The translations under genes were made by a program, and so were the position numbers. Under the pieces are notes generated by a model, which had not been told where the DNA came from, ran no database searches, and saw only the letters and a list, made by a program, of their open reading frames with translations. Positions 1,630 through 49,320 of a DNA stretch of 64,000 bases are shown piece by piece (the first letter of the stretch is position 1; every line of letters begins with the position of its first letter). Source of the DNA: Ereboglobus sp. (lineage in GTDB: Bacteria; Verrucomicrobiota; Verrucomicrobiia; Opitutales; Opitutaceae); the NCBI GenBank assembly GCA_029974595.1, contig JARKRC010000044.1, positions 1-64,000 of the forward strand. Reading direction: 5' to 3'.

Positions 1630-3222
1630 TTATCCCCCAAATGGAGCCGGCTGGATTTTGAATTCCCTCCTGGGATTTTCCTGTGGAAGCGGCGGAGGGA
1701 TTTCCTTGCCGGTTTCTCTTGCAACTTCACGAAGCACCTCGCGGGCCATTCTTTTTTGCTCGTGGGTCGCCTTTGGATCGGCTGACAGCACTTTTATCAC
1801 AGTCTCGGCGCTTTCATACTGTTTCAGCCGCCAATAGGTAACCGCAAGGGCCAGATAGGTTCTGCTCCTTTCGCGCATGGCGGGCAGGGCGGAGAGCACC
1901 TTGTTCATTTCCTTCGCGCGTATGTTCGGGCTTTGCGATTCGATCATTGCCAGCAGCTCATACGCATCCATGGAGTCGGGCGCCAGTTCGAGCGCGCGAT
2001 CAATGAGTTTCCTGTATTCGGCGCACATGTCGCCGTGCATTATATATTTCAACGGCAGGTTGCTGTTTTGATAAAAACTGCGCAGCAGCCACACATAAAC
2101 GAGCGGGTTGACGCTGTTGTTTTTCACAGCCTTGAGCCAGTATTCTCCCGCGGCGCCCATCCCGCCTTCATATGCCTTGATCTCGGCGAGTATCTCGCAG
2201 ATGCGCGGATTGGCCGGATGTTGTTCGAGCAATTGCAGGAGGCGGAATTCGGCGTCGGGCGCCTGTTTGATGCGCCATTTGAATCCGGCCAGCTCGATGT
2301 CGCGTTCGATGGGATCGGCGGGCTTGGCGGTGATTTTCCGGCGGATCGGCGCGGCGGGAATCTTTTTGGTCACGGTGATGTGGCGTCCGCGGCTGAGATA
2401 GTCCCTGAGCGCCTCTTCCAGCTTCGCATAGTCCAGTCCAAAGGCCCGCTCGAAGGCGTCGGATGTCGATATGCCGGGAGTCTCGCAAAGATCCAAAAAC
2501 ACATCCAGTTTTTTCGCGGTGACGAGGTCGGAATTGTTTCCGAATACCATATAATGCATGAGGAGCCATGATTGCGCGTAGAATATATTCACATGGTCTT
2601 TTTCATTATAATATTTGCTTTTGTGATCGACGGCAAAAAACGTCTTGAAGGGCAGCCATCTCTTCCTGCTCAGGAGGTGGACATACCAGGGCTGCGCGAC
2701 GCCGATCTTCACCGTGTCGCCCTTGACCTCGAATGTCGAATAGACCTCGGCGAGCCCCTCGTTCAGATACAAAGGCGGGCGCAAACCCATCGCCGCGATG
2801 AGCGAGTGGACATATTCGTGGAATATGGTCTGCAGGCCCTCATCGACTTCCTCGTTCACCATCATGATTCGGGGATTGGTCGGGCTTTGCATGAACACGC
2901 CCGTCAGATTTGTGCGGACCTTCTGCTTGTATGACGGCAGATACGGGATGAATTGTTTTTGGGAGCCGAGGACAACGATGTAGGGCCGTGTGTAGTGGGT
3001 GCGTTTCTGGGGAAAGAAGGTGAAAAATGCCGTGCGAAATTGTTCGAGCCTCACCAGCAGGTTCTTCGCTTCGCGCTCGGAGGTGCAACTGAGCATGTCG
3101 AAATTTTCGCTGCTCAGGCGGAGCCATTTCTCGGCGGCTTGGGTTGCATGTGGCGCCATGCATGCAAAGAGCAGGGCGCACACGGCGATGGAAAAGCACG
3201 ATCGGAGAATACGTCGCGACAT
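1630..3222 (-). CDS. Exported gluzincin-type metallopeptidase-like protein with TPR repeats
   Basis: 530 residues. The N-terminus has a signal peptide with a Cys near its end (LLFACMAPHATQA), so secretion or lipidation is possible. HEYVH at 135-139 and NEGLAE at 154-159 give the two-His plus Glu zinc site of gluzincin peptidases. The C-terminal half (about 310-500) reads as TPR-like helices. I see no closer family name; proteins of this layout are usually annotated as hypothetical or DUF1570-like. The ATG at 3222 is preferred over a TTG at 3237. It probably shares a transcript with htrA. Confidence 0.7.
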   Translation of the reverse strand: MSRRILRSCFSIAVCALLFACMAPHATQAAEKWLRLSSENFDMLSCTSEREAKNLLVRLEQFRTAFFTFFPQKRTHYTRPYIVVLGSQKQFIPYLPSYKQKVRTNLTGVFMQSPTNPRIMMVNEEVDEGLQTIFHEYVHSLIAAMGLRPPLYLNEGLAEVYSTFEVKGDTVKIGVAQPWYVHLLSRKRWLPFKTFFAVDHKSKYYNEKDHVNIFYAQSWLLMHYMVFGNNSDLVTAKKLDVFLDLCETPGISTSDAFERAFGLDYAKLEEALRDYLSRGRHITVTKKIPAAPIRRKITAKPADPIERDIELAGFKWRIKQAPDAEFRLLQLLEQHPANPRICEILAEIKAYEGGMGAAGEYWLKAVKNNSVNPLVYVWLLRSFYQNSNLPLKYIMHGDMCAEYRKLIDRALELAPDSMDAYELLAMIESQSPNIRAKEMNKVLSALPAMRERSRTYLALAVTYWRLKQYESAETVIKVLSADPKATHEQKRMAREVLREVARETGKEIPPPLPQENPRREFKIQPAPFGG

Positions 3223-3350
3223 GTCGTGAAATGGCAAGGGTTTTTGCCATTGAACAAAGCCAGCGCCGCGCGATCACTGCAAGATCAAATCATCCGTGCG
3301 AGATTGCAAAAAGAGGCAACGTGCAATCCCTTGATCGGCCTCTCGCTTTC

Positions 3351-3379
3351 CTATTTGTAACGTATTACGTTACAAATAG
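3351..3379. promoter_or_regulatory. 29-bp perfect palindrome (family half-site TTTGTAACGTA)
   Basis: A 14-base arm CTATTTGTAACGTA and its exact inverse flank one central base. It lies about 130 bp upstream of the metallopeptidase-like gene in the 3223-3552 spacer, which is relatively AT-rich and holds no gene. It is the longest of four related palindromes in this window. The symmetric shape with one central base suggests a dimeric regulator operator, but a small mobile palindrome is not excluded. Confidence 0.6.
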
Positions 3380-3491
3380 CCCGGCATAATCATCCGGGGG
3401 ATCATCTGCGGGATTATGCATCGATTGTTAGTTGAACATTTGCCCATCGTCTGTCGATTATCCATTGGCCGGTCATCCGTTATTATTTTAA

Positions 3492-3516
3492 GTTTGTAAC
3501 GTAATGCGTTACAAAC
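3492..3516. promoter_or_regulatory. Second palindrome of the TTTGTAACG family, partly degenerate
   Basis: The outer ten bases GTTTGTAACG pair exactly with CGTTACAAAC, and the centre carries one symmetric mismatch pair. It lies 139 bp (centre to centre) from the copy at 3351-3379 and close to the 3' end of cdd. A GC-rich inverted repeat (3519-3546, arms GGCGCGTC/GACGCGCC) abuts it and may be the cdd terminator, although no clear T-run follows on the minus strand. Confidence 0.5.
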
Positions 3517-3552
3517 GAGGCGCGTCCGCAGCGGGTGTGACGCGCCGTGTTT

Positions 3553-3963
3553 TTACGCGAGGTTGCGCGGGCCGAATGCGTGCGGGAGCAGGGCGTCCAG
3601 CGTTGTGTCGATGCAATGGTCGGAATCGCAAATGGAGATCACGCGGGCTTGCGGGCCAAACTCGTTGATGACCTGGCGGCACGCGCCGCAGGGCGGGGTT
3701 GCCGTTTGGGTGGGCGTGTAAACAACGACGCAGCGCACTTCGCGCTCGCCGAGGGCGGCGGCCGTGAAAATCGCCGTGCGCTCGGCGCAATTGCACAGGC
3801 CGTAGGAGGCGTTTTCGATATTGCAACCGGCGTGGATTCTGCCGGAGCCGGCGAGAATCGCCGCGCCGACGGGAAACGTGCTGTAGGGAGAATAGGATTT
3901 TTTTGCGGCGGCACGCGCGGCTTTTTTCAAACGTTGTTCGAGGGCAGGGGATATTTTTTTCAT
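3553..3963 (-). CDS. cdd: Cytidine deaminase
   Basis: 136 residues from the ATG at 3963. The zinc-site signatures are present: CAERTA (Cys plus catalytic Glu) and PCGACRQ. CNIENASYG is the substrate-binding loop of homotetrameric cytidine deaminases. It deaminates cytidine and deoxycytidine to uridine and deoxyuridine in pyrimidine salvage. The C-terminus is typical in length for the small tetrameric class. It starts 49 bp downstream of the adenylating enzyme on the same strand. Confidence 0.93.
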   Translation of the reverse strand: MKKISPALEQRLKKAARAAAKKSYSPYSTFPVGAAILAGSGRIHAGCNIENASYGLCNCAERTAIFTAAALGEREVRCVVVYTPTQTATPPCGACRQVINEFGPQARVISICDSDHCIDTTLDALLPHAFGPRNLA

Positions 3964-4012
3964 GCGCGAAGGGAAAAATGCTTTTGAGCCCGTGGCAACC
4001 AAATGAGCGGCG

Positions 4013-5404
4013 TCACTGGCATTCGAGCATTTTGAGCAGCGCGGCGTGGTCGGTTTTGCCGCGCTGGGTTGTCGGAAAGGCGGGCGTCACCACGATGTGG
4101 TCGGGAATTTTCCACGCGGCGATGCGCGATGAGAGTTGCCTGCGCAGGTCGATGGCGTGCGAGAGCGGTTCGTCCGCGGCAATGCCGGCGGCGATGGAAT
4201 CGGGGCGTTTCGGATCGGCGGCGACAAAGGCGTCGCGCACGCCGGGCAGCGCGCGAAGGGCGTTTTCGACCTCGGCGGGATCGAGGCGGCGTCCGGCGAT
4301 TTTTAATGTGCGCCCGGCGCGGCCAAGGAGCCGCAGTTCGCCGGCGGGGGTGAGTTCGCCGCGGTCAGGCGGCGAGTAACGCCCATCGCCGTGCACGGCG
4401 GCGCTTTCGACGGTGAAGCGTCCGCCGCGCCGCCAGATGAGGCGCACGCCTTCAAGCGGGCTGCCAACGCCGCGCGCGGTTTCGGCGGCGTCGCCCAAAC
4501 GGTCATAACTGATGCCGCCGGTCTCGCTGGTGCCGTAGAAATTGTGGATGTGGAGGTCGTATTTTTGCGCAAAGGCGAGCGCGTCGGCTGGCGCGAGCGG
4601 CGCGCCGGCGGAAATGACAAGGCGCAGACTTGCGAGGGCGTCTGGAGAAATGCCGGCGTTTGCGAGCGCGCGAAGGAGCGTGGGAACGGCGGGGAAGACG
4701 GTCGGTTTCCAGCGGACGCAATCGGCGGCGATCACATGGGGAAAAGGGCTCGCGGCGCTGAGGACAGGCGTGCCTTGTTCGAGGAGCGGGACGACGATGT
4801 GGCCGAGTCCGTAGGAGTGGCCGAAGGGGATGATGCCGAGACTCAGATCGTCCGGGCGGATGCTCATGGTCGCGCAGATTTGGCGTCCGTCGGCAAGCAT
4901 TTGGGCGTGTGTGAACGCGAGCGCGCGCGGCGCGCCGGTGCTGCCGCTGGTGAGTTTGATAAGGCAATGATCGGCACGGCGAACGGCGGCGCGCGATGCG
5001 AGAAGCGTGAGACTGCCTTCGTGCCAGATGGCGGCGGCGCGGCAGCCGGCGGCGATGGCCGCGAGGCGGGCGGGCGTCTCCTTGGAATCGGCCAGAGCGG
5101 GGATGGCGCCGAGTTCGAGCAGGCCGAGAAAAATGTGAAACCAGCGCGCGCCGTTTGGCTCGGCCATGACGATGCGGCATCGGGCAAGGCGCGCGCGGGT
5201 GGTGTCGGGAAGCGTGGCAAGCCAGTCGGCGGCGGCTGCGGCGAGTTCGGAGCGGGTCCATGCGCGTCCGCTCGCGCCGTCGATGATGGCGGTGGCAGCC
5301 GGCGCGGCGGAGACGAGGCCGCGCCAAGTGGAGAGGAGCGAGGCGGGCGGTGTCATGGGCGTGAACGGGCGGGGTTCGGGTTCATATCGCGTCGTTTTGC
5401 GCAT
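4013..5404 (-). CDS. AMP-dependent synthetase/ligase (acyl-adenylating enzyme)
   Basis: About 463 residues. ANL-superfamily core motifs appear in order: phosphate loop LTSGSTGAPRAL, NFYGTSETGG, GRAGRTLKIAGRRLDPAEVE, and a C-terminal Lys in TTQRGKTD that should catalyse adenylation. It is shorter than typical long-chain acyl-CoA ligases (500-560). The acyl substrate cannot be inferred. The start is uncertain: ATG at 5404 or at 5356. An in-frame extension upstream of 5404 would be coded by the palindromic repeat cluster and is probably not translated. Confidence 0.8.
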   Translation of the reverse strand: MRKTTRYEPEPRPFTPMTPPASLLSTWRGLVSAAPAATAIIDGASGRAWTRSELAAAAADWLATLPDTTRARLARCRIVMAEPNGARWFHIFLGLLELGAIPALADSKETPARLAAIAAGCRAAAIWHEGSLTLLASRAAVRRADHCLIKLTSGSTGAPRALAFTHAQMLADGRQICATMSIRPDDLSLGIIPFGHSYGLGHIVVPLLEQGTPVLSAASPFPHVIAADCVRWKPTVFPAVPTLLRALANAGISPDALASLRLVISAGAPLAPADALAFAQKYDLHIHNFYGTSETGGISYDRLGDAAETARGVGSPLEGVRLIWRRGGRFTVESAAVHGDGRYSPPDRGELTPAGELRLLGRAGRTLKIAGRRLDPAEVENALRALPGVRDAFVAADPKRPDSIAAGIAADEPLSHAIDLRRQLSSRIAAWKIPDHIVVTPAFPTTQRGKTDHAALLKMLECQ

Positions 5405-5429
5405 CGCTTGAACAACACGCTTGCGCAAG

Positions 5430-5562
5430 GGGCGGCGGCGTCCCGCCGCCGGACGAGGCGAATGCCTCGCCACGATTTGCGCGCGGATTTTCCAAATCGC
5501 GGGCGATCCAATCCGGGCGCGACTGCGTCGCGCCGGGCGGCGAGGACGCCGCCCCTCCTTGT
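5430..5562. repeat. Cluster of GC-rich palindromes in the gatB-downstream spacer
   Basis: At least four hairpin-forming units sit side by side: GGCGGC/GCCGCC (5431-5450), GAGGC/GCCTC, CGATTT/AAATCG, a near-palindrome around GCGCGACTGCGTCGCGC and GGGCGGC/GCCGCCC (about 5535-5555). It fills the spacer between gatB and the adenylating enzyme. It is a mosaic of small inverted repeats like those inside mfd. Confidence 0.7.
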
Positions 5563-5597
5563 CGCACGCGTGCTTTCGAGAGGGGAAGGGTCATGCG

Positions 5598-7067
5598 CTA
5601 GTTTGCCAGCAGGCGGCGGAGGGTTTTATCCACGTCCGCGGGGTTGGCCTTGCCTTTGCTCGCTTTCATCACGGGGCCTTTGAGGCCGTTGATGGCGCTT
5701 TCCTTTCCGGCGCGGAATTCCTCGGCGGCTTTTGCATTCGCGGCGATGGCGTCGCGGCACCATTGTTCGAGTTCATCGGTGTTGGTCGGCGCGGTTTTAA
5801 GGCCGCGTCGGTCAGCGATTGTTTCCGGCGCGTCGCCGGTGGCGAACATGTCGGCGAAAACTTCCTTGGCGGCGTTGCTGGTGAGCGTGCCGGCGGCGAT
5901 GAGTTTGACGAGGGCGACGAGATTCGCGGGCGTGACTTTGGCGGCGGCTTCGTCGAAGGTGGCGCTGGTGGCGCCGAGTTCGCGGAGGAGGTCGTTTGTG
6001 ATCCAGTTGCCGATGGGTTGCGCGAGCGCGGGAGCGTCGAGGCCGGCGAGTTTGACGGCGGTGTCGTAGTAGTCGGCGAGCCGTTTGTCCCAGATGAGGA
6101 CGGAGGTGATCGTGTAGGGGAGTTTGTAATCGGCCATCAGGCGGCGCTGGCGGTCGAAGGGACGCTCGGGGAGCGTGGCGGCGAGGGCGGAGCGCCAGGC
6201 GTCGTCGATGCGCACGGGCATGAGATCGGGGTCGGGAAAGTAGCGGTAGTCGTGGGCGTCTTCCTTGGTGCGGAGCGATTGGGAGGTGCCGGTGATGCCG
6301 TCGAAATCGCGCGTTTCCTGAATGACGGAGCCGCCGCTTTCAACGATCGCGGTCTGGCGTTTGATTTCGTGGGTGATGGCGTCGCGGACGAAGGAAATGG
6401 AGTTGAGGTTTTTCATCTCCACTTTTGTGCCGAGCGTTTTTGAACCGGCGGGGCGGATGGAGACGTTGGCGTCGCAGCGCATCTGGCCTTTTTCCATGTC
6501 GCAGTCGGAGACGCCGCCTTGCTGCATGGTCGCGCGGAGGATGGTGAGGAAGGCGGCGGCCTCGTCGCCGCTGGCGAGCGCGGGTTCGGTGACGAGTTCC
6601 ATGAGCGGGGTGCCGGCGCGGTTGTAATCGACGAGGGACTCGGTAGCGAAGTGGTTGAGTTTGCCGACGTCCTCCTCGAGGTGGATGCGATTGAGGGAAA
6701 TCGTTTTGTGCCCGCCTTGGATGTTGCGCGCGGGGCCGGGGAGTTCGATTTCGACGGAGCCGCCGATGCAGATGGGTTTGAACTGCTGGGTGAGTTGGTA
6801 GTTTTTGGGCGAGTCGGGGTAGAAGTAGTTTTTGCGATCCCAGCGGCATTCGTCGGCGATGCGGCAGTTCACGAGGAGGCCGGCGCGGATGACCTGGTCG
6901 ATCGCGGCTTTGTTGAGCACGGGAAGCGCGCCGGGGAGCGCGAGGACGACGGGGTCGGTGAGCGTGTTCGGCTCGTGCCCGTAACCGGCGGCGGCGCGGG
7001 TGAACATTTTTGTGCGGGTCTTGAGCTGGATGTGGACTTCAAGACCGATGACGGCTTCGTATTTCAT
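5598..7067 (-). CDS. gatB: Asp-tRNA(Asn)/Glu-tRNA(Gln) amidotransferase subunit B
   Basis: 489 residues, the usual length for GatB. The start MKYEAVIGLEVHIQL is the family hallmark, and the C-terminal part carries the YqeY-like tail domain. GatB holds the kinase/tRNA-binding activity of GatCAB, which converts misacylated Glu-tRNA(Gln) or Asp-tRNA(Asn) to the cognate amide in the cytoplasm. It follows gatC and gatA on the same strand. A 190-bp spacer with an inverted repeat separates it from gatA, so expression may not be strictly polycistronic. Confidence 0.97.
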   Translation of the reverse strand: MKYEAVIGLEVHIQLKTRTKMFTRAAAGYGHEPNTLTDPVVLALPGALPVLNKAAIDQVIRAGLLVNCRIADECRWDRKNYFYPDSPKNYQLTQQFKPICIGGSVEIELPGPARNIQGGHKTISLNRIHLEEDVGKLNHFATESLVDYNRAGTPLMELVTEPALASGDEAAAFLTILRATMQQGGVSDCDMEKGQMRCDANVSIRPAGSKTLGTKVEMKNLNSISFVRDAITHEIKRQTAIVESGGSVIQETRDFDGITGTSQSLRTKEDAHDYRYFPDPDLMPVRIDDAWRSALAATLPERPFDRQRRLMADYKLPYTITSVLIWDKRLADYYDTAVKLAGLDAPALAQPIGNWITNDLLRELGATSATFDEAAAKVTPANLVALVKLIAAGTLTSNAAKEVFADMFATGDAPETIADRRGLKTAPTNTDELEQWCRDAIAANAKAAEEFRAGKESAINGLKGPVMKASKGKANPADVDKTLRRLLAN

Positions 7068-7099
7068 TTTTGAGATTCGAAAATTCGGGACGGTTTTGG

Positions 7100-7250
7100 T
7101 TCACCACGGAGGCACGGAGGACACGGAGAAATGCGGAATTGGGATTTCGGAATGCGGAATGAAACGGACACAAGCGAGAGCTTGGACATTCCACATTTGT
7201 ATTTTTCTGTCTTCTTCATCGCTCCGTGTTCTCCGTGCCTCCGTGGTGAA
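7100..7250. repeat. Long inverted repeat of the CACCACGGAG word family (gatA-gatB spacer)
   Basis: The 29-base arm at 7100-7128 starts TTCACCACGGAGGCACGGAG. Its inverse at 7222-7250 matches at 28 of 29 bases. The arms are built from tandem repeats of an (N)CACGGAG word. Between them lies about 90 bp containing repeats of a second word, GCGGAATG. The whole spacer is therefore a potential long hairpin. Confidence 0.85.
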
Positions 7251-7257
7251 TCTAGCT

Positions 7258-8709
7258 TCAAAGATTTGGCAGGCGCTGGCTCCACTGGTGCGCGGAGTCG
7301 TAGGCGTGGGCGATGGCGAGCAGGTCGGCTTCGCGGAAGGGCTGGCCGATGAGTTGCACGCCGACGGGGAGGCCGGCTTTTGTGAAACCGCACGGCATGC
7401 TCAGGCCGGGGAGGCCGGCCATGTTGACGCCGATGGTGTAGATGTCGCCAAGATAGGTTTCGAGCGGCGTTTTGTGGGAATCCTTAAGGAAGGCGGGCGT
7501 GGGCGCGGTGGGCGTGATGATCGCATCGACTTGCTTGTAGGCGTCGATGAAATCCTGGCGGATGAGCGTGCGGACTTTTTGCGCGCGCAGATAATATGCG
7601 TCGTAATAGCCGCTGCTCAGGACATAGGTGCCGAGGATGATGCGGCGTTTCACTTCCTCGCCAAAACCCTCGGCGCGGGATTTCGCATAAATGTCAACGG
7701 CATCGGTCGCGCGCGGCGAGCGGTGTCCGTAGCGGATGCCGTCGAAACGCGCCATGTTGGAGGAGCACTCGGCGGTCGCGATGATGTAGTAAACAGCGAT
7801 GCCGTATTCGGTGTGCGGCAGGCTGATTTCGCGGATTTCGCAACCCAGGTTTTTGTAGAAATCGACGGCGGATTGCACGGCGGCGGCGACCTCGGGATCG
7901 AGGCCTTCGCCGAAATACTCCTTCGGGATGCCGAGGCGCCACGGGCCTTTTTTCGCGGCGAGCGCGGCGCGATAGTCAGTGGCTTCGGAGAGGATCGACG
8001 TGGAGTCGAGCGGATCGTGTCCGGCGATGGCAGCGAGCATGAGCGCGACATCTTCGACGGTGCGTCCGATCGGGCCGACTTGATCGAGCGATGATGCGTA
8101 GGCGGAAACACCGTAGCGCGAGACGAGTCCATAGGTGGGCTTGAGGCCGACGAGATTGCAGAAGGATGCGGGCTGGCGGATGGAGCCACCGGTGTCGGTG
8201 CCGAGCGAGGCGGTGACTTCGCCTGCGGCAACGGCTGCGGCGCTTCCGCCGGAGGAGCCGCCTGCGACGCGCGTGAGATCGTAGGGGTTGTTGGTCGGGT
8301 GAAAGGCGGAATTCTCGGTGGAGCTGCCCATCGCGAATTCGTCGAGATTGAGGCGGCCCCAGAAAACGGCGCCGGCTTCGCGGAGTTTGCGTGTGACGGT
8401 GGCGTCGTAGGGCGAGATGTAGCTGGCGAGGATTTTTGAGGACGCAGTGAGCGGTTGATCCTTGACGGAGATGATGTCCTTCAGGCCGATGGGAATGCCG
8501 TCGAGGGGGCCGAGGGATTTGCCAGCGGCGCGGCGCTCGTCGGAAGCGCGGGCTTGCGCAAGTGCGGCGGTTTCGTCGGAGGAGTTGAATGCGCCAATAC
8601 GCGGCTCGACCGCTCGCGTACGCGCGATGTGAACCTGCGTGAGTTCGACCGAGGAGATTTTTTTCGCAGCGAGCTGCGCGGAGACGGCGGTGAGAGGTTG
8701 GGAAATCAT
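7258..8709 (-). CDS. gatA: Asp/Glu-tRNA amidotransferase subunit A (amidase)
   Basis: 483 residues, typical for GatA. The amidase signature GGSSGGSAAAVAAGE contains the catalytic Ser residues, and the catalytic Lys is in GLKDII. The subunit hydrolyses glutamine and passes ammonia to the GatB site. It lies between gatC and gatB in transcription order gatC-gatA-gatB, with a repeat-filled spacer (8720-8810) between it and gatC. Confidence 0.97.
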   Translation of the reverse strand: MISQPLTAVSAQLAAKKISSVELTQVHIARTRAVEPRIGAFNSSDETAALAQARASDERRAAGKSLGPLDGIPIGLKDIISVKDQPLTASSKILASYISPYDATVTRKLREAGAVFWGRLNLDEFAMGSSTENSAFHPTNNPYDLTRVAGGSSGGSAAAVAAGEVTASLGTDTGGSIRQPASFCNLVGLKPTYGLVSRYGVSAYASSLDQVGPIGRTVEDVALMLAAIAGHDPLDSTSILSEATDYRAALAAKKGPWRLGIPKEYFGEGLDPEVAAAVQSAVDFYKNLGCEIREISLPHTEYGIAVYYIIATAECSSNMARFDGIRYGHRSPRATDAVDIYAKSRAEGFGEEVKRRIILGTYVLSSGYYDAYYLRAQKVRTLIRQDFIDAYKQVDAIITPTAPTPAFLKDSHKTPLETYLGDIYTIGVNMAGLPGLSMPCGFTKAGLPVGVQLIGQPFREADLLAIAHAYDSAHQWSQRLPNL

Positions 8710-30141: not shown

Positions 30142-33100
30142 TCACGCGGGGAGGTTGTTCAGGAAGGTGATGATTTCTTTCAGGCGCGCGAGAGGCTTGG
30201 TCGCGGCGAGGCGGGGGAAGCGGGTGCCGTGCATCACGTAGTCGTCGCGCCTGCCGGTGTTGCGCAGGCATTTCAGGCGCGTGCCGTCGGTTTCGACGCT
30301 GAGAATGTTTTTCTGCTCGGCGCGGATTCGGATTTCGGTGATCAGGAAAAGGGCGCGGACTTCGTCGCCGTATTTGCCGAAACGGTCGCGCAGGTCGGCC
30401 TCGATTTGCTTGAGGGCGCCGGGCGAATCGGCGAGCGCGAGGCGGCGGTAGATGTCGATGCGCAGGCGCGTTTCCGAAATGTAGGCAGTTGGGATGCGCG
30501 CTTGAATCGGCGCGACGGTGGCGGCGCCGTTCGCCTCGTCCTCGGCGGCCTTGATGGCGGAGTAGGAAGTGGCATGGGCTGCAGGCCCATGTTTTTGAGA
30601 CACGGGCTGGCTGCCCGCGCCACTCGACCCCGTGCCACCCGTCGCGTCGGCTTCGCCCACGTAAACGAAATCGAGTTTCACGGAGGCGCGGACATTGGCG
30701 GCGGCTTTTTCGCCTTTCAAGCGGGCGACGGACTGGCGGAGGAGCTGGCAGTAAAGCTCGAAGCCGACGCCGACGATGTGGCCGCTTTGCTCGGAGCCGA
30801 GGAGGTTGCCCGCGCCGCGCAGTTCGAGGTCGCGCATCGCAATGCGGAAGCCCGCGCCGAGCTGGTTGTGCGTGCGGAGGGCGTTGAGGCGCTGGCGCGC
30901 GATTTCGACGAGGTGCGTGTGGCGGTGCAGAAGCAGGTAGGCGTAGGCCTGGTGCTTGAAACGTCCCACGCGGCCGCGGAGCTGGTAGAGTTGAGAGAGG
31001 CCGAAGCGGTCCGCGCCCTCGATGATGATCGTGTTGCAGTTGGGAATATCGAGGCCGCTTTCGATGATCGTGGTGCAGACGAGGATGTCGTGTTTGCCGG
31101 CGACAAAATCGGTCATCACCCGTTCGAGGTCTTTTTCGTCCATTTGGCCGTGGCCGACGCCGATGCGCAGGTCGGGCATGAGCTGGCGGAGGCGCGCGGC
31201 GACGAGGTCGATTGTCTGGACGCGGTTGTGCAGATAAAAAACCTGCCCGCCGCGGCGCAGTTCGTGGCGCACGGCTTCGACGATGAGTTTTTCATCGTAG
31301 GTTTTGACGATCGTCTGGACGGGGTGGCGGTCGACGGGCGGGGTTTCGATCACGCTCATGTCGCGCGCGCCGGTGAGCGCCATGTAGAGGGTGCGCGGGA
31401 TGGGCGTGGCGCTCATCGACAGCACGTCCACGGTGGCGCGCATGGTCTTGAGGCGCTCCTTGTGTTTTACGCCGAAGCGTTGCTCCTCGTCGATGACAAC
31501 GAGGCCGAGGTTGCGGAAGACAATGTCTTTTTGGAGGAGGCGGTGCGTGCCGATGAGGATGTCAACCTGCCCGGCGGCGGTGGCCGCGATGATTTTTTGC
31601 TGTTCGCGGCGCGTGCGGAAGCGCGAGACCATTTCGACGACGACGGGGTAGCCGGCCATGCGTTCGCGGAAGGTGTTGAGGTGTTGCTGCGCGAGGACGG
31701 TCGTGGGCACAAGTACCGCGACCTGGCGTCCGTCCTGCGCGGCCTTGAAGGCGGCGCGGATCGCCACTTCGGTTTTGCCAAAGCCGACATCGCCGCAGAT
31801 GAGGCGGTCCATGCCGCGGGGGCGTTCCATGTCGGCTTTCGTTTCGTCGATGGCGCAGAGCTGGTCGCGGGTTTCGGTGTAGGGGAAGGAGGCTTCGAAT
31901 TCCTTCTGCCACGTCGTGTCGGTGCTGAAGGCGTGGCCGGGTTGGGCTTCCCGCGAGGCTTGGATGCGGAGGAGATCGGCGGCGAGGTCGATGGTGGCGA
32001 TTTCGGCGGCGCGGCGCGTTTTTTCCCAGCGATTGGTGCCGATGCGGCCGAGCTGCGGGCGCGTCTTGCTGAGGCCGACGTAGCGGCTGATGAGGTGCGA
32101 TTCCTGAAGCGGGACGTGGAGGGTGACGCCGTCGTCGAATTCGAGCGAGATGACTTCGCGGATGCCGGCGGCGTGATCGATTTTTGCGAGGCCGCGGTAG
32201 AGCGCGATGCCGTGTTGGATGTGGACAATGTAATCGCCTTCGACCAGTTCGGAGAAGTCGAGGAGCTGGTCGATTTGCGCGCGTTGCACGAGCGCGCGGC
32301 GTTGCAGCGCGGTGGCTCCGGGGCGTCGCGCGCGCTGGCGTCCGAAGAGTTCGGTTTCCGTCAGGAATAATTCGGAATGCGGAGTGCGGAATGCGGAATG
32401 ATCGGAGTGCGGCGGGTTGGGCGGGTCGAGTGGCACGGGCATCCTGCCCGTGGGTTTGAGGGATCGGGTGGCACGGGCGACTCGCCCGTGTTCTGAGAGC
32501 GCGGCCGAGTCGGCCGCGAGGCCCGATCCCATGGGCGGGTCGCCCATGCCACCCGACCCCGTGCCACCCGACCCGCCGCGGCGCGTGATGCGGAAGCCTT
32601 CGTTGAGCGTGCCCCGCAGGTAGCGGGGCCGGATTTTTTTGAGGCCGGGGCAGGCGGCTAGAATTTCCTTGGCGCGGCTTTCCTCGCCCTCCTTCGCGGT
32701 GATGATGGTGAGCGCGTAGCCATCGCGCGTAACCCACTCGGCGACTTGTTTCAGGAAACGGGCGCGGGCGTCTTCCTCAGCTTGGAGGCGTTCGTTGGCG
32801 ACGAGGTCGTTCGAGGGATAACTGCGGTGGTGGACGAGACTGTCGGTTTCCCAGACGGTTTCGTGTGTGCCGGGGGTGTCGAAGAGCGTGGTGACTTCGT
32901 CGATGTCGCTCACGCCGAAGAGGGCGGAGAGTTTCGGAAAGAAGGCCGCGAAAGGGCAGGACGAAGCAGGGTAGGGCGAAGCCTCCGGCTGAGCCGCAAT
33001 GGATGGAAAATCGGGAGACGTTGACGGCTTAGCCGGAGGCTTCGCCCTACCCAAAGCGGCGGTTTCCTCAATCGCGGCGGGTTCGACGAGAAGCATGTGC

Positions 33101-33882
33101 GTGCCGGGCGGGAGATAATCGGCGAGGCCGGTTTTCGAGGGCGCAAGGCGCACGCGCGGGCTTGCGGAGAGCGTGATGGCGGGGAGCGATTCGGCGGAGC
33201 GTTGCGTGACGGGATCGAAGGCGCGGATGTCCTCGATTTCGTCGCCGAAGAAATCGAGCCGGCAGGGTTGCGTGGCGGTGATGGGATAGACGTCGATGAT
33301 GCCGCCGCGCACGGCATAACTGCCGGGTGTCTCGCAGACGGCTTCGCTGTCGTAATCGAGCGCGTTGAGTTTTTCGAGGAGCGTTTTGAAAGGGCAGGTC
33401 TGGCCGCGTGTGAGCGTGAGCTCGGCGGTGGCGAATTGTTCGAGCGCGGGGACGGGTTGCAGGAGCGCGGTCGGAGTCGTGACAATGATGGCGGAGCGCG
33501 CGGGCATCTTGTCGAGTGATTGCGTGGCACGGACGGCCTGCCCGTGTTCGGACGATACGGGCTGGCAGCCCGTGCCACTCAATCCGCGCAGGGCCGAGAG
33601 GACGGTGAGGCGGTCGGCGCTGGCGGCAAAGGCTTCGCGCATGTCGCGCGTGTCGGGCATTGACTGGGGGAGGATGTAGATGTGCGGGGCGGACGACGCG
33701 GGGGTTGCATTTTCGAAAAATGCGAGATCCTCGGCAAGTTGTTCGGCGAGCTTGGGTTCGTCGGCCACGATCAGCCACACAGGCGCGGGGTGCGCGCGCA
33801 CGAGCTCGTCGATGACTGCGCCGCGTGCCGGCGGGCAGACTCCGACGTGTTTGGCTCGATACGGTATCGCCGATGACGACAT
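30142..33882 (-). CDS. mfd: Transcription-repair coupling factor Mfd
   Basis: 1246 residues, about 100 longer than the usual 1150. An N-terminal UvrB-like region comes first, then the RNA-polymerase-interacting domain (LVEGDYIVHIQHG, about 540), a translocase with Walker A GDVGFGKT (about 695-702) and DEEQRFG (about 800), and the C-terminal TRCF domain. It displaces stalled RNA polymerase and recruits UvrA. Four in-frame palindromic insertions account for most of the excess: residues about 102-120, 278-305, 434-506 and 1087-1105, all in linkers. No motif is interrupted, so the protein is probably active. Confidence 0.95.
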   Translation of the reverse strand: MSSSAIPYRAKHVGVCPPARGAVIDELVRAHPAPVWLIVADEPKLAEQLAEDLAFFENATPASSAPHIYILPQSMPDTRDMREAFAASADRLTVLSALRGLSGTGCQPVSSEHGQAVRATQSLDKMPARSAIIVTTPTALLQPVPALEQFATAELTLTRGQTCPFKTLLEKLNALDYDSEAVCETPGSYAVRGGIIDVYPITATQPCRLDFFGDEIEDIRAFDPVTQRSAESLPAITLSASPRVRLAPSKTGLADYLPPGTHMLLVEPAAIEETAALGRAKPPAKPSTSPDFPSIAAQPEASPYPASSCPFAAFFPKLSALFGVSDIDEVTTLFDTPGTHETVWETDSLVHHRSYPSNDLVANERLQAEEDARARFLKQVAEWVTRDGYALTIITAKEGEESRAKEILAACPGLKKIRPRYLRGTLNEGFRITRRGGSGGTGSGGMGDPPMGSGLAADSAALSEHGRVARATRSLKPTGRMPVPLDPPNPPHSDHSAFRTPHSELFLTETELFGRQRARRPGATALQRRALVQRAQIDQLLDFSELVEGDYIVHIQHGIALYRGLAKIDHAAGIREVISLEFDDGVTLHVPLQESHLISRYVGLSKTRPQLGRIGTNRWEKTRRAAEIATIDLAADLLRIQASREAQPGHAFSTDTTWQKEFEASFPYTETRDQLCAIDETKADMERPRGMDRLICGDVGFGKTEVAIRAAFKAAQDGRQVAVLVPTTVLAQQHLNTFRERMAGYPVVVEMVSRFRTRREQQKIIAATAAGQVDILIGTHRLLQKDIVFRNLGLVVIDEEQRFGVKHKERLKTMRATVDVLSMSATPIPRTLYMALTGARDMSVIETPPVDRHPVQTIVKTYDEKLIVEAVRHELRRGGQVFYLHNRVQTIDLVAARLRQLMPDLRIGVGHGQMDEKDLERVMTDFVAGKHDILVCTTIIESGLDIPNCNTIIIEGADRFGLSQLYQLRGRVGRFKHQAYAYLLLHRHTHLVEIARQRLNALRTHNQLGAGFRIAMRDLELRGAGNLLGSEQSGHIVGVGFELYCQLLRQSVARLKGEKAAANVRASVKLDFVYVGEADATGGTGSSGAGSQPVSQKHGPAAHATSYSAIKAAEDEANGAATVAPIQARIPTAYISETRLRIDIYRRLALADSPGALKQIEADLRDRFGKYGDEVRALFLITEIRIRAEQKNILSVETDGTRLKCLRNTGRRDDYVMHGTRFPRLAATKPLARLKEIITFLNNLPA
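30569..30623. repeat. Palindromic element A inside mfd (before the TRCF domain)
   Basis: Two hairpin units GTGGCATGGGC/GCCCATG and CGGGCTGGCTGCCCG lie side by side. On the mfd strand they code GTGSSGAGSQPVSQKHGP. The insertion lies just upstream of the TRCF domain. Confidence 0.8.
32366..32583. repeat. Palindromic element cluster B inside mfd (about 70 codons)
   Basis: Contains at least GGCACGGGC/GCCCGTG units at 32432-32452 and 32467-32490, GCGGCCGAGTCGGCCGC at 32501-32517, and ATGGGCGGGTCGCCCAT at 32531-32547, then word repeats of GCGGAATG near 32370-32410. It separates two conserved Mfd stretches, LNEGFRI and LTETELFG. Confidence 0.85.
32969..33052. repeat. Palindromic element D inside mfd, 22-bp perfect arms
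   Basis: The arms at 32969-32990 and 33031-33052 are exact inverse repeats starting GGGTAGGGCGAAGCC. The loop is 40 bases. The region codes a Pro/Ala/Ser-rich linker of Mfd (about 278-305). Confidence 0.9.
33524..33578. repeat. Palindromic element C inside mfd (N-terminal region)
   Basis: Outer arms GTGGCACGG and CCGTGCCAC enclose inner hairpins (ACGGCCTGCCCGT and CGGGCTGGCAGCCCG). On the mfd strand it codes GTGCQPVSSEHGQAVRAT, closely resembling the peptide coded by element A. Confidence 0.88.
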
Positions 33883-36934: not shown

Positions 36935-39900
36935 ATGCATAACATTGTCCACAAAATCACCCGTTCGTTAATCGGCTTGGGGAGCGCACGCGGCTCGCGG
37001 GCTAGTTTTTGCGTCCCGCCAAAAACCGTTGCCCGGCGGGACGCCGTGCAAGGCACGCGGGACGCGTGCGCTCCCCGGAATTTATCCCCCCGTTTTGAAT
37101 ATCTGAGGCTGGCCGCGCTTGTCTTTTTCGCGGCAGTCTGCGTGTCTGTGCCGGCGCCGGCACAGCCTGCGGGAACCGCCGGTGTTGGCAGCATCGAGGG
37201 CGTGGTGTATAACTCGACCAACGGTTTGCCGGTGGGCAGGGCGAAAGTCCGCATCAAGAGCATCGGGGATGAGACACTTACGGACGACGAGGGGAGATTC
37301 AGATTCATTAATGTGCGGGCGGGCGCGACCGACTTGGAGGTCTCCTACTTGGGCTTCGATTCGCAAACTGCCACCGTGACGGTGGAGGCGGGCAAAACCG
37401 CCGTCCGCGATTTCCAGATCATCCGCGAAGGCTCGGCGCGCAGCCGCGCCAGGGACGACGAGGTGGTCTTGCTCGAAAAATTCGAGGTGGTGGCCGACCA
37501 GACCATGAGCGCGCAGGCTCTCGCGATGAACGAGCAGCGCGCCGCAGCGAACATCAAAAATGTCGTTGCCATGGAGGACCTCGGCAACTTTGGCACCGAA
37601 AATATCGGCGACTACATCCGTTTTTTGCCGGGTGTGGCCATCATTGATGACGGCGAAGATGCGGGCCAGCTAGGGCTCGGCGGCTTCGGCCCGGAGTTTA
37701 CCAACGTGCAACTTGATGGCGGCGATGTTGCCAGCACCGGCGGCGGCACGCCCGGCGGCGCCGAAAACCTCAGCAAACGCAACCTCACGCTCGCGGAGGT
37801 GCCGATGGTGAACATCGAGCGTGTGGAAGTCACCAAAGTGCCCACGCCCGACATGTCGGCTTCGGGGCTGGGTGGCTCGATGAACCTCATCACCAAGAGT
37901 CTGCTCGGCACGCGTCGCGCCTACATCGACTACCAGCTGTATATGAACTTTAATAACAAGGAGGGCCTGTCCTTCGACGGCGGCGAGAGGCAGCTTACCC
38001 CGCAGACCTCGCCTAAAAACAAAAAACCCTCCTTCAACACCTCCATCGTCGTGCCGATGAGCAGATCGTTCGTTCTCAGCGCCGCCATTTCCCGCTCCTG
38101 GCGATCGCGTCCCGCGTCGGGCACGCCGACCGAAATCGCGCTATGGAATCTGAGGACCACCGAGCAGTCCAATCCCAGCATCTCCAAGGACATCGCGCTG
38201 GCGGAAGCGCAGTGGTCGCAAATCGCACAGATTACCGTCACTGAAAACGTGCAGGTTGGCGTGGAGTGGAAGATGGCGCGCAACGACACGCTCTCGTTCA
38301 CCCTCCAAAGTCGCGAGGTCACCACCGACCGTTCGACCAGCCGCCTGGCCACCCGCTTTTATTTGGGCACCAATTACGATCCTGTCGGCGGCGCGGACTG
38401 GACCGCCGCCCCCAATCCCACGACAGCCGGCGGCGAGTTTGAGATGGGCCAGAACGCCGCGCTCAACTTTCGCGAGAAGACGGACACCACCCACATGACG
38501 CTGCGCTACAAGCACCGCGGTCCGAAATGGCAGATCGACGGGCAGGCCGTCTATTCGCGCGCCAAACGTGTCAAAAGCAATCTGGATCAGGGCTACTTCG
38601 CGGGCATCTACGCCTTGGGCAATGAATCCATGAGCCCGCGCAAGGGTTATCAAATGGAAGGCTACGGCATCAACTCGACCGACAGCATTCTCCCGGCCAG
38701 CTATGTCGCGAAAAACGTGGCCACCGGCGAGACGGTCAGCCCGTACGACGGCGGCAGCTACCTCCTGCATCAGGTGCGCAACGAGGACGGAATGTATAAA
38801 ACGGACCTGTTCTCGGGTCGCGTGGACGCGACGCGCATTCTCAGCCGTCATCTTCAAATCAAGGCCGGTGTTTCTTTCAACCGCATGACCAAGGATGACT
38901 GGCAGGTTCCGAGCATTATTACTTTTTTGGGTGATCCCTCGGTCGCCCCTGGGACCACCACCGCGGCTTCCTATGAAAGAAAAAAGCTGAAGTATTATAT
39001 TGAAGATTATCCTTATCTCCTGGTTTCCGGCGTGCGCATGAACGGCAATGATGTCACTTGGATCAACCCGGCGGGCGTGTATAAATTGTCCCAGTTGCAT
39101 CCCGAATGGTTTACCCCGGAAAGCAGCGCCATCACATACCGTGCGGAGCGCTCGAAAAAAATGATCGAGGATATCGCCGCGGCCTACGTGCGGTTCGACT
39201 TGCGGCTGTTTTCCAACCGGCTCCACGCCATCGGCGGCGTGCGTTATGAAAAAACCGATCTCGACGGCTGGAGCGTGAAACGGGATCCAACCGCGATTTA
39301 CGTGCGCGATCCTGATACCGGTCTGCCCCTGAAAAATCCCAATGGCACCTGGCAATTGATCACTACCAACGTCGAGGAACAGCTCCGTCTGCAATATCAG
39401 GAGCGCGCCTTTCACGAGGGTCAAAGTTACGGCGATTTCTATCCCAGCCTCCATATCAACTATTCATTCACCGAGAATCTCATCCTCCGCGCCGCCTACG
39501 CCCGCACACTCGGACGTCCGAACATAGTTTTTGTTGTCAACGGTATCACCATTCCAGGCCTCCCCACCGAGCCTTTGGAGGAGGACGATCCTATTCCCAC
39601 TGTCAGTGTCGGCAACCCAGCCCTCAAACCGTGGACGGCCGACAGCTTCCACCTTTCGCTCGACTCCTACCTCCTCAAGGGCGGCTTCGGCTCCCTTGGC
39701 GTCTATCGCAAATACGTGAGCAATTTTTTCCAGCAGCGCAATTACACTGCCACCCGCGAGGATTTCGAACACTACGGCATCAACAGCAACGACATCGATT
39801 TCATGCTCGCGAACAACTATGCCATCAGGCGTTACGAGAACATCGGCGACGCCCGCCTCGACGGTCTCGAGTTCACCTATCGGCAGGATCTGTTCTTCCT

Positions 39901-40339
39901 TCCAAGCTGGCTCCGGACCGTGCAAGTCTGGGTGAATTACACCCGCATGAATCTCGGCGGCACCAGCGCTCGCGATTTCGTCGGTTTCACCCCCGAGGCG
40001 TTTTCCTGGGGTGTGAACTATATCCGCCCGCGTTTTTCCTTCCGCTTCAATTGCGCTTACCAGGCCGAGACAAAATCCGCCGCGGTCGGCACCGGAGGCA
40101 ATGCGGGCAAATACATCCCCGCCAGAACCTATGAATACCAGGACGCCTACACCCGCTATGGCGTCACCGCCGAATACGCCTTCTCCCGCGCTTTCACCGT
40201 TTACATGAACTGGAGCGACATCATCGGTGATGACCGTATAAAATACCGTCGCGCCGACAACACCCCGGTATACGCGCAAAAATACCAGCGCATCGTCACC
40301 CCCACCTATATCATGGTAGGCATCAAGGGACGCTTCTGA
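36935..40339 (+). CDS. TonB-dependent outer-membrane receptor with N-terminal carboxypeptidase-like domain
   Basis: 1134 residues. A hydrophobic signal core (LRLAALVFFAAVCVSVPAPA) lies unusually late, at about 52-75, because a palindromic element codes residues 16-48. Then a carboxypeptidase-regulatory-like beta domain (about 85-165, EGVVYNSTNGLPVGRAKV), a plug (about 170-330) and a large barrel ending VGIKGRF with terminal Phe. It imports a large substrate using TonB energy, plausibly glycans or glycan fragments released by the neighbouring sialidases. Confidence 0.9.
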   Translation: MHNIVHKITRSLIGLGSARGSRASFCVPPKTVARRDAVQGTRDACAPRNLSPRFEYLRLAALVFFAAVCVSVPAPAQPAGTAGVGSIEGVVYNSTNGLPVGRAKVRIKSIGDETLTDDEGRFRFINVRAGATDLEVSYLGFDSQTATVTVEAGKTAVRDFQIIREGSARSRARDDEVVLLEKFEVVADQTMSAQALAMNEQRAAANIKNVVAMEDLGNFGTENIGDYIRFLPGVAIIDDGEDAGQLGLGGFGPEFTNVQLDGGDVASTGGGTPGGAENLSKRNLTLAEVPMVNIERVEVTKVPTPDMSASGLGGSMNLITKSLLGTRRAYIDYQLYMNFNNKEGLSFDGGERQLTPQTSPKNKKPSFNTSIVVPMSRSFVLSAAISRSWRSRPASGTPTEIALWNLRTTEQSNPSISKDIALAEAQWSQIAQITVTENVQVGVEWKMARNDTLSFTLQSREVTTDRSTSRLATRFYLGTNYDPVGGADWTAAPNPTTAGGEFEMGQNAALNFREKTDTTHMTLRYKHRGPKWQIDGQAVYSRAKRVKSNLDQGYFAGIYALGNESMSPRKGYQMEGYGINSTDSILPASYVAKNVATGETVSPYDGGSYLLHQVRNEDGMYKTDLFSGRVDATRILSRHLQIKAGVSFNRMTKDDWQVPSIITFLGDPSVAPGTTTAASYERKKLKYYIEDYPYLLVSGVRMNGNDVTWINPAGVYKLSQLHPEWFTPESSAITYRAERSKKMIEDIAAAYVRFDLRLFSNRLHAIGGVRYEKTDLDGWSVKRDPTAIYVRDPDTGLPLKNPNGTWQLITTNVEEQLRLQYQERAFHEGQSYGDFYPSLHINYSFTENLILRAAYARTLGRPNIVFVVNGITIPGLPTEPLEEDDPIPTVSVGNPALKPWTADSFHLSLDSYLLKGGFGSLGVYRKYVSNFFQQRNYTATREDFEHYGINSNDIDFMLANNYAIRRYENIGDARLDGLEFTYRQDLFFLPSWLRTVQVWVNYTRMNLGGTSARDFVGFTPEAFSWGVNYIRPRFSFRFNCAYQAETKSAAVGTGGNAGKYIPARTYEYQDAYTRYGVTAEYAFSRAFTVYMNWSDIIGDDRIKYRRADNTPVYAQKYQRIVTPTYIMVGIKGRF
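36979..37076. repeat. Nested inverted repeat inside the N-terminus of the TonB receptor
   Basis: Outer arms GGGGAGCGCACGCG (36979-36992) and its inverse (37063-37076) enclose inner arms GCGTCCCGCC (37011-37020) and GGCGGGACGC (37035-37044). The right outer segment (37053-37076) recurs exactly at 48943-48966. It codes residues 16-48 in frame, ahead of the signal-peptide core. Confidence 0.88.
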
Positions 40340-48886: not shown

Positions 48887-49320
48887 GGTGATTTGCCAAC
48901 CGGTTTCGGACTTTTAGGCGAAGTGCGGGACGCCCTTCGTCTGCACGCGGGACGCGTGCGCTCCCCAGCAAGACGCGCACGCTTTCCCCATTCTCTGATC
49001 TCCGTCCTTCTTCCTCCTTTTCCGTCCTTCGCGCCCTTCTCGCCTTTGCTGTGAATTCTTCCGTGTTTTCGTGTTTCCGTGATCCCAAAACACGCACGGC
49101 ATCGCGCAGAAAAACGTGTCTGCCCCGGCGCTGCGACTGAAAAACTATTTCTACAAGACGGCTGAAAAGTTATTTAATTTGTTCTAATGAGCGAGCCCTG
49201 ATGTGCTTATATATCTCGGGCTTGGTGGAGGTATCCGTAATTTTAGGTTCGCATGAGTCCGAATTTTTTTCATTAAAATTTCAAAGATTAGAACATTATA
49301 TCAGCAACAACCCTATTCCC
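48887..49320. other. Gene-free spacer with repeat copies and AT-rich promoter
   Basis: 48943-48966 is an exact 24-base copy of the TonB-receptor repeat arm (37053-37076). 49060-49085 holds the CCGTGTTTTCGTGTTTCCGTGAT word also seen near 165. From about 49140 the sequence is AT-rich and is probably the promoter of the coupled DUF3857 genes; an ATG at 49201 opens the frame but a signal peptide starts only near 49321. Confidence 0.6.

Follow-up and report, generated by a model that had tools for sequence, protein, structure and literature searches.

Mobile palindromes that insert in frame into protein-coding genes are known from Rickettsia as Rickettsia palindromic elements, and inteins and other selfish inserts bring the enzyme of a mobile element to translation inside an essential host protein. 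The locus described here is the mfd gene of an Ereboglobus sp. (Opitutaceae), within a 64,000-nucleotide stretch of DNA (contig JARKRC010000044.1, positions 1 to 64,000; hereafter the window), whose reading frame runs through four palindromic units. The most similar described systems are repetitive extragenic palindromic (REP) elements with their REP-associated tyrosine transposases (RAYTs, also TnpA-REP): in the REPtron a Y1 HUH transposase is flanked by its own REPs, each composed of a tag and a palindrome and found also as REPINs (available text of PMC3116915, PMC2817692, PMC6006769 and PMC8266576), with the tag guiding the choice of cleavage site (PMC8266576, which for GTGG substrates gives CA and CC as cleavage dinucleotides). 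Here too a Y1 HUH RAYT is flanked by its cognate REPs.

For Opitutus terrae (Verrucomicrobia), the available text of PMC3733652 describes REPs of the GTAG superfamily lying in frame in genes, as pairs and clusters, including GTAG-20 elements in most of which the tag is mutated to GTGG; their hosts include two uvrA genes and a DNA ligase, and tRNA synthetase genes in other bacteria. The predominant elements in mfd resemble these in the GTGG tag variant, in clustering and in insertion into repair genes, and the mfd case is a further instance of REPs in frame in genes: a real finding, of a known kind. The surprising part is the in-frame nesting of the transposases themselves. The main text of PMC3733652 contains neither 'mfd' nor 'alanyl', its available text mentions no nested in-frame transposase gene, and we found no in-frame nested RAYT in the open-licence PMC literature. 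According to the available text of PMC3116915, REPs were sought in non-coding DNA beside RAYT genes, whereas here the RAYT has lost its stop and, in alaS, its start, and forms a domain within an enzyme. Since a few unexpectedly long proteins were dropped as gene fusions or annotation errors in PMC6006769 (available text), nested cases may have been passed over.

We propose that the mfd palindromes are REPIN-like doublets and clusters of two REP families which would have been mobilised as single-stranded DNA by RAYTs, and that the source of the more numerous family, REP-A, was most likely a RAYT nested in the menF gene of the same genome. Judged from sequence, this account is probably correct.

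REP elements in the linkers of mfd and in other genes

The mfd open reading frame (ORF; 30142-33882, minus strand, 1246 amino acids) stays open through all four units, and a Pfam scan places every unit outside the Mfd domains (amino acids 155-239, 547-602, 673-832, 869-975 and 1125-1205), in inter-domain linkers. The repeats in the frame are these:

33524-33578, unit C: inverted REP-A pair, 33524-33546 (plus) and 33556-33578 (minus), one mismatch each; peptide SGTGCQPVSSEHGQAVRATQ, amino acids about 102-124.
32969-33052, unit D: inverted pair of the second REP family, GTAGGGCGAAGCCTCCGGCT, 32971-32990 (plus) and 33031-33050 (minus); translated as amino acids about 275-307.
About 32420-32577, unit B: three REP-A copies, 32430-32452 (plus), 32468-32490 (plus) and 32530-32552 (minus), with a further GC-rich palindrome; translated within amino acids about 436-497.
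32366-32413, adjoining unit B: short repeat of the GGAATGCGGAGTGCGG / GGAATGCGGAGTG type, different by eye from REP-A; also translated in frame within mfd.
30569-30623, unit A: inverted REP-A pair, 30569-30591 (plus) and 30601-30623 (minus); peptide GTGSSGAGSQPVSQKHGPAAHATS, amino acids about 1082-1104.

A preliminary description of this DNA had reported palindromes A, D and C at exactly these coordinates, and the peptides it read, GTGSSGAGSQPVS and GTGCQPVSSEHG, are indeed encoded in the mfd ORF. Its unit B, given as 32366-32583, is palindromic and in frame, but is really the three-copy REP-A cluster, the left part being the other repeat. All four palindromes are read in frame in linkers, as it said, but two REP families are mixed in mfd, one comprising A, B and C and the other D. 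In its effect, the in-frame insertion of mobile palindromes, the case does parallel the Rickettsia palindromic elements as proposed, but the family is not a new one, being REPs with a RAYT, and the hosts differ. Intragenic RPE-4 and RPE-6 have been placed among CGTC repeats, without association with a transposase gene (available text of PMC3733652).

The palindromes recur through the genome, as the preliminary description had anticipated. REP-A, defined as GTGGCAYGGGC-N5-GCCCRTG, has 189 matches (96+93) in the 4.07 Mb genome from which the window comes (G000), with none for the reversed pattern, and it occurs as inverted pairs and clusters, the REPIN/BIME (bacterial interspersed mosaic element) arrangement, as in mfd. 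Allowing up to three mismatches, the window has ten matches, corresponding to eight distinct palindromes of which seven are inside mfd; 0.60 are expected, and none of 100 shuffles reached ten. The D family has 19 copies with at most one mismatch, 12 of them forming six inverted pairs 54-60 nt apart, and its tag is GTAG. No D-family copy lies near RAYTs in the 2.2-3.3 kb stretches of five loci of this genome (L001, L002, L004, L005, L006), the draft being incomplete. Units A, B and C are REPs by their GTGG tag and GC-rich palindrome, high copy number, inverted pairing and association with a RAYT. The idea of an unknown palindromic family was rejected, since the units fit REPs in copy number, tag, the pairs of the D family and the published O. 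terrae elements. REP-A was found in 10 of 38 genomes searched (G000 included) and in none of the 13 among them that represent other families of the order.

Mfd was aligned across 30 of these 38 genomes (G000 and 29 others), the nearest named loci coming from Opitutaceae. Two genomes of the same genus, G001 and G003, have shorter Mfd proteins that lack the REP-encoded peptides; G003 is very probably Ereboglobus sp. PH5-10 (L048), as matches in the two fall at identical contig positions. The protein exceeds PDB chain 6x26_A (1148 residues), which we take to be E. coli Mfd, by 98 residues, and the open frames of G001 (1164) and G003 (1178) by 82 and 68, and the reported excess of about 100 residues stands. 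Measured against G001 and G003, linker length changes by +57 nt at C, +48 at D, +165 at B and -21 at A, each a multiple of three; C, D and B lengthen Mfd, whereas the linker holding A is longer in these relatives, and unit A therefore did not lengthen its linker. A third genome of the genus, G002, has an Mfd cut at the N end, with other, longer linkers at A and B. By eye, linker A of G001 and G003 ends in the REP-end-like AGCCCACGCCAC and their linker B has a weak GTGG-palindrome; it is possible, from these traces, that older REPs once lay in both linkers.

The elements in mfd would have survived by landing in flexible linkers with the frame kept, and REP-A appears suited to coding DNA: five REP-A units tried contain no stop in any of the six frames, compared with five open frames for a GTAG-tagged version, and the combination of GC richness with GTGG in place of GTAG, which contains TAG, may explain this. 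Beside the palindromes the tag is GTGG in 101 of 112 and GTAG in 2 of 112, counts that are biased because the stretches were mostly picked by the GTGG pattern. If REP-A is suited in this way, the REPs themselves would be built for in-frame reading.

REP-A is by no means confined to mfd. We sampled 40 stretches round 97 of 100 listed REP-A places (of the 189; three near contig ends were left out), together with locus L157 and the window, giving 59 clusters, among which mfd unit C is not counted as the strict core pattern missed it. Using Pfam scans of 19 frames and positions to place them, 21 of the 59 are enclosed by a single open gene, host sequence flanking them left and right. Seventeen are between or inside domains of a single gene: IspH, AroA, a 2-oxoacid dehydrogenase E2, a lipoamide-dehydrogenase-like protein, MetH (2), two CobN proteins (3), a Mg-chelatase subunit, PurL, alpha-2-macroglobulin (3), a Mur ligase, MutL and an ABC-F-like protein; menF (2, beside the RAYT) and mfd (2) complete the total. 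Four further clusters (hydrolase L175, RHS L179, ABC L182 and the first of L192) sit in frames where Pfam sees domains to just one side of them, three scanned REP-bearing frames gave no Pfam domain, and the other clusters are not within long frames or are unconfirmed as in-gene. Locus L192 (G000:C22:10500-23100) holds a 2151-residue alpha-2-macroglobulin gene (ORF 1945-8397, minus) with four in-frame REP-A clusters.

The reading phase of these copies is not random. Sense copies are read in the GTGxxPV phase in 21 of 24 cases, and antisense copies in the HGxxARAT phase in 18 of 22 (15 genes), with chi-square p values of 1.3e-7 and 8.8e-6 that treat copies as independent, which they are not; counted by gene, GTGxxPV is used in 13 of 15. 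Flanks of the GATTGA or GGTTGA type close one of the sense phases with a stop and leave the others open, and stops therefore account for only part of the bias; the rest may reflect peptide tolerance or fixed spacing within the element. The suggestion that this lineage tolerates or favours insertion into proteins is thus supported as to tolerance, by the 21 clusters and the non-random phase; insertions may be favoured or simply survivable.

RAYTs nested in frame inside enzymes

The genome has six Y1_Tnp matches, one of which lies in frame inside menF, the isochorismate synthase gene, with three REP-A copies on each side. One REP-A type at this locus is identical to the mfd copy at 32430-32452. 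Because these three-copy arrays flank it, and because of that identity, the menF-nested RAYT is the most likely source of REP-A, and it would be the enzyme that moved the copies in mfd. The nested frame is 770 amino acids long and stop-free, with Pfam matches to Y1_Tnp and the chorismate-binding domain; the N part of the frame is without a Pfam match and is recognised by its alignment with relatives' MenF. A second RAYT lies in frame in alaS, the alanyl-tRNA synthetase gene, between copies of another family, REP-B, in a frame of 1145 amino acids whose Pfam order is tRNA-synt_2c, Y1_Tnp, tRNA_SAD, DHHA1. A search of the draft genome (96% complete) gave no further AlaS, the other three matches to this frame being RAYTs.

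Nesting is not restricted to these two hosts. Y1_Tnp scored above the Pfam cut-off in all eight nested proteins of the first scan and in G009, a 799-residue frame counted as nested by its likeness to G117 alone and lacking a Pfam host domain. Host domains flank Y1_Tnp on both sides in AlaS (G000, G106), HsdR (G031), creatininase (G001) and the G117 methylase (N6_Mtase and Eco57I). For MenF (G000, G176) and an adenosine deaminase (G051), Pfam recognises the host enzyme only in the portion that follows the RAYT; the portion ahead of it was identified by alignment for MenF and by eye for G051. Four other frames were not counted: G002:C318 (1033 amino acids) shows an altered HUH motif, AANHVH, in a RAYT-like stretch close to the end of a contig, and those of G012 (686), G061 (519) and G225 (565) have a remainder unlike any known protein by eye, with no Pfam scan made.

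Two of the hosts, L277 (G117:C5, Eco57I/N6-methylase) and L152 (G031:C47, HsdR), are restriction-modification proteins, placing a transposase within a defence gene. At L147 and L148 (G001, G003) a RAYT separates the halves of a tandem creatininase; by eye, G000 has a creatininase-like start near a free RAYT (L004), the two not being in frame together.

The nested RAYTs no longer have their own stop codon. None of the four alaS cases examined has an in-frame ATG, GTG or TTG before the LPHF core, and no Shine-Dalgarno-like motif precedes any candidate start in the 13 nested cases examined, the menF cases having start codons; synthesis of the RAYT from an internal start is for these reasons not supported. 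An RNA intron was rejected for the nested genes L157 and L158, which have no Rfam match at the gathering threshold, and the Pfam scan of the nested proteins gave no intein model, splicing motifs not having been searched individually. The nested RAYTs would then exist as protein only within the host enzyme, as a domain in its interior held on REP-encoded tethers, and we infer that the domain acts while part of the fusion. Consistent with this, the two histidines of HUH and the tyrosine of YIxxNP are invariant in 19 aligned rows, 17 of them nested, and the menF RAYT aligns with TnpA-REP 4er8 at the catalytic residues. A structural model of MenF-RAYT (747 amino acids, pLDDT 77, pTM 0.64) is confident for the MenF halves and moderately so for the RAYT core, the REP stretches falling below 50; its best Foldseek match is E. 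coli MenF 2eua, over 736 columns including gaps.

The broader proposition is that in Opitutaceae, and in one or more further families of the order, RAYTs persist as unspliced, catalytically intact internal domains of indispensable enzymes, that an essential host stops their decay, and that from there they have seeded REPs genome-wide; on the sequences at hand we consider its chances even. An indispensable gene around it would guard the transposase frame against loss; such hiding within an essential protein, without splicing, would be a selfish strategy. The nested RAYTs share with inteins the arrangement of a translated insert and differ by the REP-encoded linkers at their junctions. Should the fusions be produced, AlaRS and MenF can tolerate a foreign nuclease domain of about 150-190 residues that is not spliced out. 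A RAYT fixed in frame in a tRNA synthetase offers a simple route to persistence. The findings also carry a warning for annotation: in this group, transposase domains and REP peptides occur within some housekeeping proteins.

Carriage, selection and competing explanations

The menF nesting is present in at least six of 250 family genomes (G000, G007, G039, G074, G176 and, at a contig edge, G255), representing six genera, and the alaS nesting in at least five (G000, G003, G042, G068, G106), representing four; both recur at the same site across genera. The alignments comprise 28 of 30 loci for MenF and 20 rows for AlaS (A1). The alaS gene of G001 has no insert, and by eye the menF site without a RAYT has a decayed REP pair in G001 and G003 and several REPs in G018. 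A different in-frame palindrome, GATGTGGGCGGAGTGCC..., occupies the same menF linker in G004 (L209, by eye). In a tree of 39 RAYTs one branch separates the menF-nested group (92/91) from the rest and another the alaS-nested group (100/100), and the remaining nested RAYTs are scattered.

Carriers have more of the cognate REPs. The six menF carriers have 189, 274, 15, 24, 60 and 80 REP-A copies (median 70, including those at the nested locus), compared with a median of 1 in 28 non-carriers, which are congeners and chosen comparison genomes (p = 0.0006). REP-B (at most one mismatch) has 19, 17, 33, 3 and 1 copies in the five alaS carriers; among 17 non-carriers G007 has two, G002 has one and the others none, G002, a 65% complete genome in which no AlaS was found, being only loosely classed as a non-carrier for either gene. 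After subtraction of the copies at the nested locus the carriers retain 17, 15, 31, 2 and 0 (p = 0.0007). Carrier and non-carrier species within one genus thus provide a natural experiment.

The ratio of nonsynonymous to synonymous substitution (dN/dS, NG86) is lower in the RAYT part than in the host parts: 0.163 for the alaS RAYT (G000 versus G003) compared with 0.285 and 0.319 in the AlaS parts, 0.145 for the creatininase RAYT compared with 0.273 and 0.170, and 0.113 for the menF RAYT compared with 0.193 and 0.203, dS in this last case being near saturation. The dS of the alaS RAYT (L158, L154) is 0.89, about two to three times that in AlaS (0.46 and 0.29), for which codon bias is a guess.

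A number of results count against RAYT-driven mobilisation from nested sites, and two of them, the enforced open frame and the REP-A copies of G005, are what would be expected if recombination, gene conversion or slippage had spread the mfd units as passive repeats and the nested RAYTs were relics held open by essential hosts. A frameshift or stop in alaS breaks an essential gene, and openness alone is therefore no evidence for RAYT function. G005 is rich in REP-A (196 copies) without a menF-type RAYT, the non-carriers G018, G146 and G238 have 69, 33 and 19 copies, G106 has an alaS RAYT and no REP-B beyond the copy at that locus, and both carrier statistics ignore relatedness. The whole mfd inserts, moreover, are open in only some of the six frames (A five, B four, D two, C five), a PDB search with the alaS RAYT gave no match at E 0.01, and the AlaS-RAYT model (pLDDT 66, pTM 0.38) is too poor to interpret. 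Relics would nevertheless not be expected to show dN/dS values of 0.11-0.16, below those of the host parts, or invariant HUH and Y residues, nor would passive repeats vary with carriage within a genus, as REP-B does (19 and 17 copies in G000 and G003 versus 0 in G001); on balance we regard this explanation as unlikely. Assembly chimeras or pseudogenes are very improbable indeed. Most of the genomes are drafts, and the alaS gene of G003, again to the disadvantage of our interpretation, is split over two contigs with a low-complexity, poly-C end, but nesting recurs in separate genomes (including menF in G007, 2 contigs, and G176, 3; alaS in G106, 30), in stop-free frames with host domains on both sides in two AlaS, HsdR, creatininase and the G117 methylase.

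The phase bias in both orientations would also fit the REP-encoded peptides having a function of their own, as linkers kept by selection for what they do in Mfd and other proteins. This we find quite improbable, as Mfd of the same-genus G001 and G003 does without the peptides, the hosts are unrelated enzymes, and the bias is also expected if phases bearing Cys or Trp are less well tolerated or if spacing within the element is fixed. A further question is whether the menF nesting arose once. RAYT identity tracks that of AlaS (r = 0.84 with the C part and 0.68 with the N part) but not that of MenF (r = 0.07 and -0.28), which also counts against our account; the menF case is therefore not simply vertical, and strict vertical inheritance of this nesting is not supported by identity. 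With carriers scattered across six genera, and REPs but no RAYT at the site in G001, G003 and G018, the RAYT could have targeted this linker repeatedly, in a homing-like manner. Against this, the menF-nested RAYTs group together, REP remnants in non-carriers fit the loss of an old insertion, and the rows are few and the distances saturated. Repeated targeting is a serious possibility, though somewhat short of an even one. Mobilisation of the mfd REPs by RAYTs, with menF as the likely REP-A source, remains the reading we prefer.

Other REPs in the window

The preliminary description had also placed one of the units in the target of an insertion sequence (IS) at 117-137. A REP is present there (112-134, minus, three mismatches), but the claim of an IS is not supported: the next long ORF (199-1617) encodes a trypsin/PDZ protease, positions 1-111 and the DNA to the left not having been searched for an IS. 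Two copies of REP-B, the family flanking the alaS-nested RAYT, also lie in the window, at 37053-37076 (minus) and 48943-48966 (minus). The former is near the start of a TonB-dependent receptor ORF (36935-40339) and, if that start is correct, would be translated as GTRDACAPRN.

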